A stretch of DNA of 64,000 nt, from positions 1,143,001 to 1,207,000 of the forward strand of contig NZ_CP030126.1 of the NCBI RefSeq assembly GCF_003568845.1, given 5' to 3'. This DNA comes from Indioceanicola profundi. GTDB lineage: Bacteria > Pseudomonadota > Alphaproteobacteria > Azospirillales > Azospirillaceae. The notes beneath the pieces are model-generated. The model was not told the origin of the DNA, searched no databases, and saw nothing but the letters and a program-made list of their open reading frames with translations. Within the stretch, counting starts at the first letter, position 1. Each line of letters opens with the position of its first letter. Below are positions 42,953 to 47,566 of the stretch, one piece after another. The position numbers and the translations under genes are program-made.

Positions 42953-43741
42953 TCACCGGAACGGCGTCGGCGGGAAGTCTCCGATGGGCGCCACATGGTT
43001 GCGCAGACCGTGGGCCGGGTCCCAGAGATGCATGGCCATGGCCGGCGGCTCCCGAGTCCAGGCGAGCGGCAGGTCGCCCAGCGTGAGCGCCAGTTGGAAG
43101 GCCGCGCTGGGGGCGCAGAAGGCGGTGGTTCCGGCGAAGGGGGCCGTAATGGCCCGGTGCACATGGCCGCAGAGGATACCCGCGATGGGCCGTCCGCGTA
43201 GGAGTTCCGCCAGCCGATCGGCCCCGCCGCACATGATCCGGTCCATGCCGACGATGCCGCTGACGAAGGGCGGATGGTGCATCAGGACCAGGGTAGGGGT
43301 GTCGCCGGCCTCCTCCAGCCGCCGCGCGATCCAGGCCAGCCGCTCTTCGCAGAGGCCGCCTTCGGTACGGCCGGGAAGGTGCGTGTCCAGGGCCAGCAGG
43401 TGCAAAGGGCCGAGGCGGCGGGACTGGTGCAGGAACTGCCCCTCCGCGGGAACGGCGCCCGTGGCGGCGAAGGCGCTGCGCATGCCGTCGCGGCTGTCAT
43501 GGTTGCCGGGAATCATCAGGCAGGGGAGCGCGAGGTCGGCCAGCAGTTCCGCCGCCATCTCGTACTCGCCCGGCTGCGGGCCGTTGATCAGGTCGCCGGT
43601 GATGACGACCAGGTCGGGCCGAGGCGTCAGCGCGTTCAGGAAGGCCACCGTCCGGCGCAGGGCGGCGGGTGTGTCGATCTCCCCCATGGCGAGCCTGCCC
43701 CTGGCGGTGACATGGCAGTCGGTGATCTGCGCGATCAGCAT
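42953..43741 (-). CDS. Metallophosphoesterase, CpdA-like (cyclic-nucleotide phosphodiesterase)
   Basis: Class III phosphodiesterases hydrolyse cAMP or similar phosphodiesters at a two-metal site. The 262 residues display all metal motifs in order: ITDCHV (DxH), VVITGDLINGP, IPGNHDSRDG, LMHHPPF and ILCGHVHRAI. This matches CpdA/Icc. The enzyme is cytoplasmic (no signal peptide). It lies 24 bp downstream of the FolM-like gene and 94 bp upstream of the aldehyde dehydrogenase gene on the same strand. Substrate not proven; other phosphodiesters are possible. Confidence 0.88.
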   Translation of the reverse strand: MLIAQITDCHVTARGRLAMGEIDTPAALRRTVAFLNALTPRPDLVVITGDLINGPQPGEYEMAAELLADLALPCLMIPGNHDSRDGMRSAFAATGAVPAEGQFLHQSRRLGPLHLLALDTHLPGRTEGGLCEERLAWIARRLEEAGDTPTLVLMHHPPFVSGIVGMDRIMCGGADRLAELLRGRPIAGILCGHVHRAITAPFAGTTAFCAPSAAFQLALTLGDLPLAWTREPPAMAMHLWDPAHGLRNHVAPIGDFPPTPFR

Positions 43742-43765: not shown

Positions 43766-44518
43766 CTAATCGAAATAGACGTCCCGCTGGCGGTGGCTGA
43801 AGCGCATGCCGGCATCCACATAGATGGTCTGTCCGGTGATGCTGCCGGACTGGAGCAGATAGCAGACGGCGCCCGCCACCTCCTCCGCCGTGGGGCCGTG
43901 GCCCAGCGGGGTCTGGCTGTGCAGCCGCTCGTAATCCGCCTGGGACTGGCCGGGTGCGGGCAAGGTGTAGCCGGGCGCAACGGCATTGACCCGCAGGCGC
44001 GGCGCGCAGGAGCGGGCCAGCGTCTCGGTCGCGCCCTGCAAGGCGAACTTGGACAGGGTGTAGGCCAGGTGGTCGCCATAGGGGGCGGCCAGCTTCTGGT
44101 CCAGGATGTTGACCACGCAGCCCGCCATGCCCTCCGGCAGGCCGGCCAGCAGATGCTTGGTCAACAGCACGGGGGCCAGGGCGTTGGGCATCATGTGGCG
44201 GGTGAAGGCTTCCGCGCTGATCGTTGATATATCGTCCCATTCGAAGATCGAGGCGCTGTTGACCAGGGCGGTCAGGGGCTGGCCGAGAGCCTCGGCCGCG
44301 GCAGGGACGATGGATTCGGCGGCGGCGGGGTCGGAGAGGTCGCCGGCGACCGTGGCGGCGTGGATGCCGTGGCGGCGGAGGTCATGGGCCAGGGAGTCTG
44401 CCTCATCCCCGCTGGAGCGGTAATGGATTACGACGTTCCAGCCATCGGCGGCGGCGCGCTCGGCCACCTTGCGGCCGATGCGCTTGGCCCCGCCGGTGAC
44501 CAGTACGGCATTGCTCAT
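43766..44518 (-). CDS. SDR oxidoreductase, FolM / pteridine reductase-like
   Basis: The 250-residue short-chain dehydrogenase has the nucleotide motif LVTGGAKRIGRKVAERAAAD. The TGGxxRIG form with Arg instead of Gly is characteristic of FolM (dihydromonapterin reductase) and PTR1 pteridine reductases. The catalytic Tyr-Lys pair is in YTLSKFALQGATETLA, with NSASIFEWDD and GQTIYVDAGMRF typical of this subgroup. GGGAGGACGGA precedes ATG 44518. A FolB-like gene lies 23 bp upstream on the same strand, supporting a pterin role; some other SDR substrate remains possible. Confidence 0.82.
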   Translation of the reverse strand: MSNAVLVTGGAKRIGRKVAERAAADGWNVVIHYRSSGDEADSLAHDLRRHGIHAATVAGDLSDPAAAESIVPAAAEALGQPLTALVNSASIFEWDDISTISAEAFTRHMMPNALAPVLLTKHLLAGLPEGMAGCVVNILDQKLAAPYGDHLAYTLSKFALQGATETLARSCAPRLRVNAVAPGYTLPAPGQSQADYERLHSQTPLGHGPTAEEVAGAVCYLLQSGSITGQTIYVDAGMRFSHRQRDVYFD

Positions 44519-44541: not shown

Positions 44542-44907
44542 TCATCTCTGCGGTTCCGGCCGCTCGGCCACGGCCGTCTCCGATGGCCCGTCGCCATGTG
44601 GCTGGCCGGCGACCTCCACCCGCACATGGCGGACCCGCGGGTCCAGCGCCATGCAGCGATCCGCGACCAGTCCGGCAACATCCTCCAGCCCGGCGAACTC
44701 GGCATCCCCGCCGATTTCGGCGCCGATCAGGCGGACGATCCGGCCATAATCCAGGGTCTCGTGGATCACGCTCTCCTCCGTGAAGCGCTCCGGCCCCTGG
44801 AAGGCCATGACCACGCTGACGAGCAGGGGCACCGGACCTGACCGGGCATCCCGAAGCCGGGCCGCGACCCGCACGCCCGTGACGTGGATGTGGAACAGGC
44901 TGGACAC
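44542..44907 (-). CDS. FolB-like dihydroneopterin aldolase-family protein
   Basis: FolB/FolX proteins cleave or epimerise dihydroneopterin derivatives in folate and monapterin synthesis. The 121 residues fit the tunnelling fold: VMAFQGPERFTEESVIHETL, then LDYGRIVRLIGAEI with the conserved Tyr, FAGLEDVAGLVADRC and the closing strand RHVRVEVAGQP. In typical FolB the last strand ends in a catalytic Lys followed by Pro; here the corresponding position reads GQP, so that Lys seems missing. The gene starts with GTG 44907 and is the first of four minus-strand genes. Activity is therefore uncertain. Confidence 0.75.
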   Translation of the reverse strand: MSSLFHIHVTGVRVAARLRDARSGPVPLLVSVVMAFQGPERFTEESVIHETLDYGRIVRLIGAEIGGDAEFAGLEDVAGLVADRCMALDPRVRHVRVEVAGQPHGDGPSETAVAERPEPQR

Positions 44908-45036
44908 GTATCGGCACCCCGATGGCTGCGGTGGGCTGATAGCAGTCTAACCCGGCTTCGCAGCAGGTCCACCACTTGCCATCGGGACATGCTATCCATT
45001 TTCCCAGGCATGTGGTTCGGCAAGGGTATGGCGGAG

Positions 45037-46029
45037 ATGCGGATCAGGGCTTTTCTGGCCGGCGCAGTCCTGGCGTTGGCGGCGGTTTTGCCGGCGGGAG
45101 CCAAGGAGCGGCTGGTGTTCATGACCGACTGGATGCCCCAGGCGGAGCATGGCGGCTTCTATCAGGCGCTGGCCACCGGGCTCTACGAGGAACGGGGACT
45201 GGAGGTGGTGCTGCGGCCCGGCGGGGTGGGCATGGACCCCCAGACGCTGCTGGCGGCCGGGGCGGTGGACGGGGCCATGGGCTCCTCCGGCTTCTTCGTG
45301 CTGAACCTGGCGGAGGTGGGGGCGCCGGTGGTGACCGTGGCGGCCCTGTTCCAGAAGGACCCCACCATCCTGATGAGCCACCCGCGCGACGATGTGAAGA
45401 GCCTGGCCGACATGAAGGGCAAGCCGATCATGATCGGCGATCCCAGCGTGAACACCGTCTGGCGCTGGCTGAAATCCCGCTACGGGTTCGAGGACCGGCA
45501 GATCCGGAAGTACAGCTTCAACATCGCTCCCTTCCTCATTGATAAGTCAGCGATCCAGCAGGGCTATGCCACGTCGGAGCCATATACGGCGACCAAGGCC
45601 GGGGTGACGCCGCAGGTGTTCCTGCTGGCCGATAACGGGTTCCTCAGCTACTCCGCAATGATCATGCTCCGCCGCGACATCGTGGAAAAGCGGCCCGAGG
45701 TGGCGAGGGCCTTCGTCGAGGCCAGCATCGAGGGCTGGTACAGCTATCTCCATGGTGATCCTTCGCCGGCCAATGATCTGATCCGGAGGGCGAATCCGGA
45801 GATGGACCAAGCCACGCTGGATTATGCCCGCGCCAGGATGGTCGAATACGGGATCGTGGACAGCGGCGATGCCGACAGGCTCGGCATCGGTGCGATGACC
45901 GAGGCGCGCTGGCAGGCCTTCACGGATGAGATGAAGGGCCTCGGCCTCTACCCGGCCGGGCTGGACTGGCGCCAAGCGGTCGACTTCCGCTTCGTCAACC
46001 AGGCGCATGGCAAGGAGATCCGGCCCTGA
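45037..46029 (+). CDS. ABC transporter substrate-binding protein, NMT1/THI5-like
   Basis: NMT1/THI5-like proteins bind thiamine precursors (ThiY), flavins (RibY) or other small molecules for NitT/TauT-type importers. The 330 residues begin with a signal peptide (IRAFLAGAVLALAAVLPAGA) and continue with the family opening LVFMTDWMPQAEHGGFYQAL. They also contain GAMGSSGFFVLNLAEVGAPV and ADMKGKPIMIGDPSVNTVWR. I chose ATG 45037, ten bases after AAGGG; ATG 45028 is also in frame. The ATPase gene follows after 14 bp. There is no TPP riboswitch upstream, so the ligand is open. Confidence 0.87.
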   Translation: MRIRAFLAGAVLALAAVLPAGAKERLVFMTDWMPQAEHGGFYQALATGLYEERGLEVVLRPGGVGMDPQTLLAAGAVDGAMGSSGFFVLNLAEVGAPVVTVAALFQKDPTILMSHPRDDVKSLADMKGKPIMIGDPSVNTVWRWLKSRYGFEDRQIRKYSFNIAPFLIDKSAIQQGYATSEPYTATKAGVTPQVFLLADNGFLSYSAMIMLRRDIVEKRPEVARAFVEASIEGWYSYLHGDPSPANDLIRRANPEMDQATLDYARARMVEYGIVDSGDADRLGIGAMTEARWQAFTDEMKGLGLYPAGLDWRQAVDFRFVNQAHGKEIRP

Positions 46030-46043
46030 GCGGAACCGACGAC

Positions 46044-46781
46044 ATGCTGCTGCGGCTGAGCGGGGTGGGACTATCCTACCCCGGCGGCACCCGCGCGCTC
46101 GAGGGCGTGGATCTGGCCGTGCGGCGCGGCGAGTTCCTGAGCCTGCTGGGATCATCGGGATGCGGCAAGAGCACGCTGCTGCGGATCGTGGCAGGGCTGA
46201 TGCAACCCACGGACGGACGGGTCGAGTGGGCGGAGCAGCCGGGGCCGGGCGGCATCGGCTTCGTGTTCCAGGAGCCGACGCTGATGCCCTGGGCGACGGT
46301 GGCCGCCAATGTGCGCCTGCCGCTGGACCTTGCCAAGGTGGACCGGCGGGCGGCGGACAGCCGGGTCGCCGGATTGCTGGAACAGGTCGGCCTGCAAGAG
46401 TTTTCAGTGGCTTACCCGCGGGAGCTGTCGGGTGGGATGAGGATGCGGGCGGCGCTGGCGCGTGCCTTGGTGACGGGGCCGAGGGTGCTGCTGCTGGACG
46501 AACCCTTCGCGGCGCTCGATGAGATCACGCGCTTCAGGCTCAACGACGATCTTCTCGATCTCTGGCAAACCACCGGGATCACGGCGATTTTCGTGACCCA
46601 CAGCGTGTTCGAGAGCGCCTATCTCTCCGGCCGCGTCGCGGTGATGGCTCCCAGACCGGGGCGGGTGGCGGCGGAAATGGCGGTGGAACTGCCTTATCCG
46701 CGGACGCCTGGGATGCGGACCGGGGCGGCATTCGGGGCGGCCTGCCGGGAAATCTCGGCGGTGCTGGAGGGGGCGGCGTGA
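46044..46781 (+). CDS. ABC transporter ATP-binding protein, NitT/TauT family
   Basis: The 245-residue ATPase has Walker A (LGSSGCGKSTLLRIVAG), the Q-loop in GFVFQEPTLMPWATV, signature LSGGMRMRAALARALV, Walker B (VLLLDEPFAALDEITRF) and the H-loop FVTHSVFESAY. These match the TauB/SsuB/ThiZ type. The last residues overlap the permease start by 4 bp (ATGA at 46778-46781), indicating coupled translation. Confidence 0.92.
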   Translation: MLLRLSGVGLSYPGGTRALEGVDLAVRRGEFLSLLGSSGCGKSTLLRIVAGLMQPTDGRVEWAEQPGPGGIGFVFQEPTLMPWATVAANVRLPLDLAKVDRRAADSRVAGLLEQVGLQEFSVAYPRELSGGMRMRAALARALVTGPRVLLLDEPFAALDEITRFRLNDDLLDLWQTTGITAIFVTHSVFESAYLSGRVAVMAPRPGRVAAEMAVELPYPRTPGMRTGAAFGAACREISAVLEGAA

Positions 46782-47566
46782 TGACGGGGCGGATGCCGGG
46801 ATTTCTTCTGCCGCTGCTCGTGGCCGTCCTGGTGCTGGGTGCGTGGGAACTACTGGTCCGGATGCGGGAGGTGCCGGTTTTCGTGCTGCCGCCGCCCTCC
46901 GCCATCTGGGCGGCGCTGGTGGCGGATGCCCCGGTGCTGGGCGCGTCGCTGTGGCTGACGCTGACGGTGACCCTGCAGGCCTTCGCCCTGGCGGTGGTCA
47001 GCGGGATGGCGCTGGCGGTGCTGTTCAGTCAGAGCCGGACGGTGGCGGCGGCGCTGTATCCCTATGCCGTGGCGTTGCAGGTGACGCCCGTGGTGGCCAT
47101 CGCCCCCCTGGTCGTCATCTGGGTGGGGTACGAGCGGGTGGACATCGCCCTGCTCATCCTGGCCTGGTTGGTGGCGTTCTTTCCGATCCTGTCCAACACC
47201 ACGCTGGGATTGACCTCCGTCGATCCGAACCTGCGGGACCTGTTCCGGCTGTACGGCGCCAGCCGGTGGCAGGTGCTGTGGCGGCTACAGCTTCCTGCGG
47301 CGCTGCCCTACCTGCTGGCCGGGATGAAGGTGTCGGGCGGGCTGGCGCTGATCGGGGCGGTGGTGGCGGAGTTCGTGGCCGGGTCGGGGACCGCGTCCGG
47401 GCTGGCCTGGAGGATCGTGGAATCGGGCCACCGGCTGAACATCCCGCGCATGTTCGCCGCCCTGCTGCTGCTGTCGCTCACCGGCATCGCGATCTTCGCC
47501 GTGTTGGCCTGGGTGCAGCGGATGCTGCTCCGCCGCTGGCATGAGAGCGAGCAGGGGCGGAGTTGA
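46778..47566 (+). CDS. ABC transporter permease, NitT/TauT family
   Basis: The 262-residue inner-membrane protein has six hydrophobic segments and the EAA loop around RDLFRLYGASRWQVLWRLQL. The region FVLPPPSAIWAALVADAPVL near the N-terminus is typical of this family. With the preceding two genes it forms a complete importer. It converges on apt. Confidence 0.92.
   Translation: MMTGRMPGFLLPLLVAVLVLGAWELLVRMREVPVFVLPPPSAIWAALVADAPVLGASLWLTLTVTLQAFALAVVSGMALAVLFSQSRTVAAALYPYAVALQVTPVVAIAPLVVIWVGYERVDIALLILAWLVAFFPILSNTTLGLTSVDPNLRDLFRLYGASRWQVLWRLQLPAALPYLLAGMKVSGGLALIGAVVAEFVAGSGTASGLAWRIVESGHRLNIPRMFAALLLLSLTGIAIFAVLAWVQRMLLRRWHESEQGRS

Follow-up and report, generated by a model that had tools for sequence, protein, structure and literature searches.

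The window, a 64,000-nucleotide stretch of Indioceanicola profundi DNA, encodes a degenerate relative of the dihydroneopterin aldolase (DHNA) FolB. Comparison of this protein with its relatives, together with structural modeling, suggests that proteins of this kind quite probably join the other FolB of the same genome to form a hetero-oligomeric DHNA with an active site divided between two gene products. We use the name FolB* for the window protein and its orthologs, which keep Tyr54 and have lost Glu22 and Lys100. In the proposed enzyme, FolB* is called beta, and the other FolB of the same genome, which carries the Glu/Lys side, is called alpha. The proposal builds on residue losses, their reciprocity, co-occurrence in genomes, purifying selection, gene context, and the fold of the monomer, and from these observations we infer assembly, ring stoichiometry, and activity. 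The features discussed here are listed in Table 1.

The reading frame of the window FolB* starts with GTG and specifies 121 residues. Its sole Pfam match is FolB (PF02152; 30.4 bits, E = 6e-7), which lies under the gathering score of 31.8, and the TIGR00525 folB model gives 23.1 bits, short of its cutoff of 72.15. An AlphaFold2 model calculated from 40 aligned sequences (pLDDT 85.1, pTM 0.79) has the tunneling (T-) fold of DHNA. Rows 1 to 32 of a Foldseek search with this model are all DHNA or FolX, the dihydroneopterin triphosphate epimerase (best match 8evk, E = 2.9e-6; range to 3.9e-4). In VIA-align, rows 1 to 19 are likewise DHNA or FolX (Z of 15.0 to 13.2, with the FolX structure 1b9l at 14.4), and other tunneling-fold proteins come next at Z of 13.1 and lower. 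The predicted secondary structure includes the ring-edge strands 1 and 4 and a helix in the Tyr loop (residues 46 to 49), and the helix after strand 1 is absent. The first-pass annotation had described a 121-residue protein with the DHNA fold, the conserved Tyr, and no catalytic Lys, and all of this is borne out: the Tyr is residue 54, Gly101 occupies the position of Lys100, and Glu22 is missing too. Alignment revealed no active-site Lys and the model no departure from the tunneling fold, the two findings on which that annotation had staked its reading. It had also contrasted the closing VEVAGQP, which we find at residues 97 to 103, with a Lys-Pro in FolB and FolX; Lys-Pro is not a general feature of FolB, however, since the intact FolB of the host genome has Lys-Leu.

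Thus, the window protein resembles FolB DHNA in its tunneling fold, its Tyr54 with the accompanying loop, its ring-edge strands 1 and 4, and its pterin-pathway context, whereas it differs in lacking the Glu22 loop and the catalytic Lys100 and in scoring under both curated cutoffs. By the catalytic features and cutoffs tested, it is a relative of FolB and not a FolB, and lacking Glu22 and Lys100, it should not be an aldolase alone. FolX has the same fold and is reportedly part of one pathway with the FolM reductase. Judged from the E. coli sequence, however, FolX keeps the Glu and the Lys that the window protein lacks, so that a FolX-type active site is absent as well.

Table 1. Coordinates of the features discussed (window positions unless a genome or locus is given)
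Feature	Position	Strand	Remark
FolB* (DHNA-fold subunit, 121 aa)	44542..44907	minus	Tyr54 present, Glu22 and Lys100 absent; Pfam, AF2, Foldseek, VIA-align
Tyr54 codon	44746..44748	minus	only catalytic residue of the proposed composite site that is invariant across all 53 FolB*
Gly101 codon	44605..44607	minus	aligns with catalytic Lys100 of FolB
Glu75 codon	44683..44685	minus	aligns with pterin-anchoring Glu74; retained in the window, mostly Asp in Azospirillum FolB*
SDR, FolM/PruA type (PRK09134-like)	43766..44518	minus	TGGAKRIG, YTLSK; 23 bp downstream of FolB*
CpdA-like metallophosphoesterase	42953..43741	minus	PF00149
NMT1/THI5-like ABC transporter genes	45028-47566	plus	divergent from FolB*/SDR
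Second FolB of the window's genome	G000:C1:2333425-2333751		Glu22, Tyr54, Glu74, and Lys100 all present
SDR with lost residues	L118 9810-10511, L167 773-1489	minus	g13 genomes G012, G362
Window-like block in G032	L135 9182-10344	minus	mlaE, apt, transporter, cpdA, aldh, clpP
PTPS-like protein with LHGATF	L381-L386, 1501-1890		G000, G002, four g13 genomes

The window FolB* is too diverged for searches with a single sequence. A direct search for relatives with it yielded 292 pattern stretches, of which none was confirmed, and phmmer with the window protein against PDB sequences gave no match. A single-sequence search of 289 genomes of the class returned nine matches, namely, the window protein itself, a FolB of G148 (E = 2e-7) with all four catalytic residues, and seven proteins at E values of 0.004 to 0.009; the L039 protein of G121 also matches the FolB profile. 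Because of this divergence, orthologs were reached solely through the neighboring SDR gene and a profile. The SDR was searched in 59 near relatives and the 289 class genomes, and 39 neighborhoods were retrieved; degenerate FolBs were found directly upstream of the closest SDRs, and a second set adjoined folK. A profile made from nine degenerate FolBs was run over 82 genomes of the family, which is presumably the Azospirillaceae, and over 289 class and 398 phylum genomes. Intact FolBs of genus group g6 reach 77.7 bits with this profile, above the FolB* of G332 at 72.5 bits; the score alone therefore does not separate FolB* from FolB, and each row was allotted to whichever of two profiles scored it higher. 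The best matches outside the family (64.5 bits among the class genomes, 61.2 bits among the phylum genomes) lie in the range of ordinary FolB and were rejected as FolB*. A partial match occurs in an uncultured Gluconobacter MAG (L379; 42% over 51 residues). One record labeled Roseomonas genomospecies 6 ATCC 49961 (L361) carries an Azospirillum-type FolB* locus, and its name looks wrong.

To take a census of the family, the FolB-family matches listed for the 82 genomes were fetched and read, and the per-genome match counts agree. FolB* is encoded in 53 of the 82 genomes: 43 of 45 in Azospirillum (genus group g12), 8 of 11 in g13, and the one genome each of g1 and g3. Tyr54 is present in all 53 and Glu22 and Lys100 in none. 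At the Glu74 position FolB* is variable, with Asp in 34 of the 43 Azospirillum rows, and another alignment puts Asp in the Glu22 column of six FolB*, where it might act as a weak stand-in. The complementary half, a FolB that has lost Tyr54 and kept Glu22, Glu74, and Lys100, occurs in 50 genomes, 49 of which carry FolB*. Put the other way, it is present in 49 of the 53 FolB* genomes and in 1 of the 29 FolB*-less genomes (G346, in 1140 contigs; a further FolB fragment there, L304, is cut at a contig end and was counted as neither intact nor Tyr-less). FolB* stands beside an intact FolB in G000, the window's genome, and in G002, and beside an alpha with a shortened loop that still holds a Tyr in G365; in G364 (860 contigs), the other FolB was not found. 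Among the 28 genomes with neither half, 27 have an intact FolB, and none was found in G004. The association between FolB* and Tyr-less FolB is strong (Fisher p = 1e-16), a value that overstates the independent evidence because it counts genomes and not events, and Tyr-loss events are few.

The loss of Tyr54 extends to the loop before it, which measures 6 to 9 residues in Tyr-less FolB (12 in G335), compared with 13 to 17 in intact FolB and 16 to 18 in FolB*. The same pattern is seen within genus group g13. Alpha has a full Tyr loop in G027 and G032, the two FolB*-less g13 genomes in which alpha was found, versus a loop of 8 to 9 residues instead of 15 to 16 in all seven FolB*-bearing genomes with an alpha found. 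In the third FolB*-less genome, G361, an alpha-type FolB was not found, and the only FolB is of the kind that adjoins the SDR in G027 and G032. The Azospirillum genome G354 carries neither half, and its only FolB is intact and of a third kind, a pattern that mutual dependence of the halves would predict.

The residues lost from FolB* follow the division of the active site between subunits of E. coli DHNA; some losses lie elsewhere, and most lie at the first face. One subunit of that enzyme is described as contacting neopterin through Ile15 to Tyr18, Trp20, Glu21, Gln26, Ala70 to Glu73, Lys98, Gly100 to Val102, and Val108 to Val110, and the adjacent subunit through Val4', Val47', and Cys50' to Asp55', with the pteridine ring stacked on Tyr53' (PMC4176595). 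An intersubunit site is stated also for H. pylori DHNA (PMC9937910) and is predicted for FolX (PMC3405516). The contact columns conserved in intact FolB number 14 for the first face and 6 for the second, next to 35 other conserved columns. FolB* retains a fraction of 0.35 at the first face, 0.94 at the second, and 0.78 at the other columns, versus 0.99, 0.56, and 0.92, respectively, for 51 short-loop alpha sequences, and none of 20000 column shuffles was equally extreme. The monomer models are complementary in predicted secondary structure as well, in that the model of the G018 alpha (pLDDT 94.3) has a helix at residues 18 to 21 and lacks the Tyr-loop helix.

Given these reciprocal losses, and given that Tyr53 of E. 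coli DHNA sits on a different subunit from Glu21, Glu73, and Lys98, we propose a hetero-oligomeric DHNA. Each active site of a DHNA ring lies between neighboring subunits, with one contributing the Glu22 loop, Glu74, and Lys100 and the other contributing Tyr54 and its loop. FolB* would be the beta subunit, inactive by itself, which retains only the Tyr54 side, and alpha would supply the Glu/Lys side. In a mixed ring, Tyr54 of FolB* would enter the pocket of a neighboring alpha, so that alpha-to-beta interfaces would hold working sites and beta-to-alpha interfaces would be dead. As the alpha of Azospirillum and of most FolB*-bearing g13 genomes has lost Tyr54, only the alpha/beta interface can be complete there. 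The Tyr is reported to be needed to protonate the intermediate on the way to product and the Lys to be needed for bond cleavage (PMC4176595); thus, neither half alone should be an efficient aldolase.

Twelve genomes encode only the two halves (Azospirillum G011, G321, G332, G334, G343, G345, G356, and G358; g13 G018, G022, G363, and G366), and the per-genome match counts leave no further FolB-family protein in them. A dihydropteroate synthase scores above its cutoff in all 12, which should therefore make folate. Replacement of DHNA by PTPS-III was considered and rejected for seven of these genomes, all among the eight Azospirillum, where no PTPS-family match is present. The eighth (G332) and the four g13 genomes have PTPS-like proteins, read by eye, and in these five a PTPS-like protein might have replaced DHNA. 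PTPS-like proteins with LHGATF occur in G000, G002, and four g13 genomes (Table 1). The QueD/PTPS motif at that place is Cys-x3-His-Gly-His. An intact third FolB is present in 37 of the 49 genomes with both halves, so the pair of halves is not the sole possible aldolase there. Many Azospirillum genomes carry one to three more complete FolB paralogs of several kinds (L204, L205, L209, L211, L212, L252, and L296).

The partner of the window FolB* in its own genome is a complete FolB (Table 1), and alpha is intact in G002 too. FolB* in these two genomes may thus be an early, optional, or facultative ring member, and the split-site argument does not require the window's own FolB*. That protein may act as a facultative subunit, may shift the ratio between aldolase and epimerase activity in favor of the SDR, or may be drifting.

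The first-pass annotation had looked to the adjacent SDR for the meaning of the gene, and the SDR indeed has the TGX3RXG and YX3K motifs of PruA/FolM pteridine reductases (NF006597, NF006598). It reaches 277.3 bits with NF006597, a marginal miss, 3.7 bits under the cutoff of 281, and by these motifs it presumably functions as a FolM/PruA-type pteridine reductase. An alternative start of the SDR gene, an in-frame ATG, overlaps the stop codon of FolB*. The third member of the arrangement in that annotation, a CpdA-like phosphodiesterase, is present and possibly cotranscribed with FolB* and the SDR, but it is no fixed companion, being found in one of four other FolB*-SDR loci compared (G002). On the other side of FolB*, the window has divergent NMT1/THI5-like transporter genes. 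ATPase and permease genes of such a transporter flank the SDR also in G002, G018, G022, G012, and G032, three g2 loci have an NMT1-like gene, identified by eye, next to the SDR, and the transporter could carry a pterin or a pyrimidine precursor. G032 has a window-like block of genes in which the opposite strand encodes an intact FolB and another kind of SDR at the site where the window has FolB* and its SDR. This amounts to a replacement in situ, for which inversion alone would not account.

Across the relatives, FolB* adjoins the SDR in 10 genomes and folK in 42 of the 53. A degenerate FolB homolog paired with a FolM/PruA-like SDR, whose co-occurrence among relatives the annotation had asked about, is therefore real at 10 loci, but the SDR is not the key to FolB*: folK lies upstream instead in 42 of 43 Azospirillum loci (the exception, L179, lies close to the end of a contig), and two genomes have an SDR that lacks catalytic residues. 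In an HPPK search of five Azospirillum genomes, this folK was the only strong match (G026 has a second, weak one of 42 bits). A pyruvate kinase neighbor common to alpha loci was considered and rejected, since its C-terminal motif, sought by eye, was seen only in G000 among 20 loci.

Gene order of this kind would suit a different role, in which FolB*, as a pterin-binding pseudoenzyme or regulator, acts together with the product of the adjacent gene (the SDR or FolK), for instance as a scaffold, substrate carrier, or feedback sensor, outside FolB rings. All 10 SDR-linked loci have FolB* and the SDR on one strand, with the SDR domain only -1 to 23 bp away, and all 42 folK-linked loci share the strand and the order folK-FolB*. 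FolB* mostly retains the acidic pterin anchor, and T-fold proteins often bind pterins or purines. We nevertheless regard this role as unlikely. It gives no reason for the loss of Tyr54 from the other FolB, seen in 49 of 53 of the same genomes. The neighbor differs between genera, and the spacing to folK is looser (136 to 238 bp to the FolB* domain in 37 loci, 652 to 868 bp in four, and one negative value). The side of the pocket formed by Leu71/Val72 and Lys98 is gone in FolB*. Moreover, in the g13 genomes G012 and G362, the SDR beside FolB* has lost the Arg position of its motif, the catalytic Lys (YTLSR, YTLSQ), and part of the substrate loop, and FolB* is still constrained: among G012, G362, and G364, dN/dS is 0.08 to 0.10 for FolB* and 0.25 to 0.30 for the SDR, compared with 0.14 to 0.20 and 0.08 to 0.16, respectively, in the group of G018, G365, and G366, whose SDR is intact. 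What maintains FolB* thus seems to be something other than SDR catalysis, and the partner of FolB* is more likely a FolB than the SDR; judged from sequence, the decisive partner seems to be the genome's other FolB. The SDR of G012 and G362, being under moderate purifying selection, may have a structural role.

A mixed ring of alpha and FolB* could also be real and yet be tuned to epimerization, converting dihydroneopterin to dihydromonapterin and so feeding the FolM/PruA-like SDR toward tetrahydromonapterin. The pteridine reductase motifs of the SDR fit this idea, as do reports that PruA and FolM reduce dihydromonapterin (PMC13259868) and that DHNA epimerizes too (PMC4176595). We consider it quite improbable, because Azospirillum FolB* is encoded behind folK, whose substrate is the aldolase product, because the half-only genomes need an aldolase for folate, and because two of the SDR neighbors look dead.

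Selection and phylogeny bear on whether FolB* is functional at all. In pairwise comparisons, FolB* has a median dN/dS of 0.28 in Azospirillum (single pairs up to 0.81) and 0.20 in the other genomes (up to 1.12); for alpha the median is 0.17 for the Tyr-less Azospirillum set (pairs up to 0.76) and 0.35 for the short-loop g13 set (up to 0.72). A further set, labeled intact g12 extra, has a value of 0.62 that mixes paralogs and was left out of the argument. That FolB* is a decaying, functionless paralog and that the Tyr-less FolB works alone by means of another residue is very improbable: the family scores are low, the window copy is the most diverged and fastest evolving (end branch 2.54; dN/dS of 0.54 against G002, at a dS of 1.18), and its genome has an intact FolB, but Tyr54 and a full-length loop persist in 53 of 53 FolB*, the median dN/dS values are low even with such single pairs, and nearly every Azospirillum genome has kept the gene.

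A tree built from 71 representatives unites the family's alpha FolBs in one group (SH-aLRT 95). The best tree places two losses of the Tyr loop, one in Azospirillum and one in g13, the latter beside the intact g13 relatives without FolB* (G027 and G032); a single loss is not rejected (p-AU = 0.168). SDR-linked FolB* form one clade (99), as do folK-linked FolB* (95). Both groups unite in the best tree with a weak support of 75, which lends weak support to a single origin of FolB*. An intact FolB lies behind folK in g6 (L219, L220, and L223; three of three loci read), and this arrangement is a plausible ancestral state of FolB*, whose derivation from the g6 FolB is not rejected by the tree tests (p-AU of 0.35 to 0.62).

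Collectively, we favor on balance a scenario in which the halves of a DHNA reside on two unlinked bacterial genes, FolB* with Tyr54 and a Tyr-less FolB with Glu22, Glu74, and Lys100. In at least 12 half-only genomes of the sample, folate would depend on alternating alpha/beta rings, and G000 and G002 would represent an earlier stage, with a half-dead FolB* beside a complete FolB.

The nearest precedent is eukaryotic. Pneumocystis FasA and FasB are said to be two FolB domains that serve DHNA activity. Both fused FolB domains of Pneumocystis Fas are described as required for one DHNA activity (PMC4790348), and a folB-folB tandem is described within fungal folB-folB-folK-folP fusions (PMC4224340). 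The likeness lies in two FolB domains for one DHNA activity. In contrast to those domains, which are fused in one eukaryotic protein, the halves described here are encoded by distinct genes at unlinked bacterial loci, and each has lost identified catalytic residues that the other retains. Among the matches listed in searches of open-licence PMC papers, none described a bacterial DHNA split over two genes with reciprocal catalytic loss; by title, none of the open-licence PMC literature on Azospirillum folB concerns a split DHNA, and for dihydroneopterin aldolase in Rhodospirillum centenum, no open-licence PMC paper was found.

If the proposal is true, these proteins would offer a clear example from nature of a homomeric enzyme that became an obligate heteromer through reciprocal loss of active-site halves. 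Intact, halfway, and fully split states would exist in related living species, so that a stepwise ratchet could be followed within a single bacterial family. DHNA is an antibacterial target, and the split enzyme would offer a simple system for studying ring assembly and the chemistry of Tyr54. For Azospirillum itself, present folB annotations would mislead, because each gene alone would be expected to be inactive, and knockout and complementation data would need to take both genes into account.
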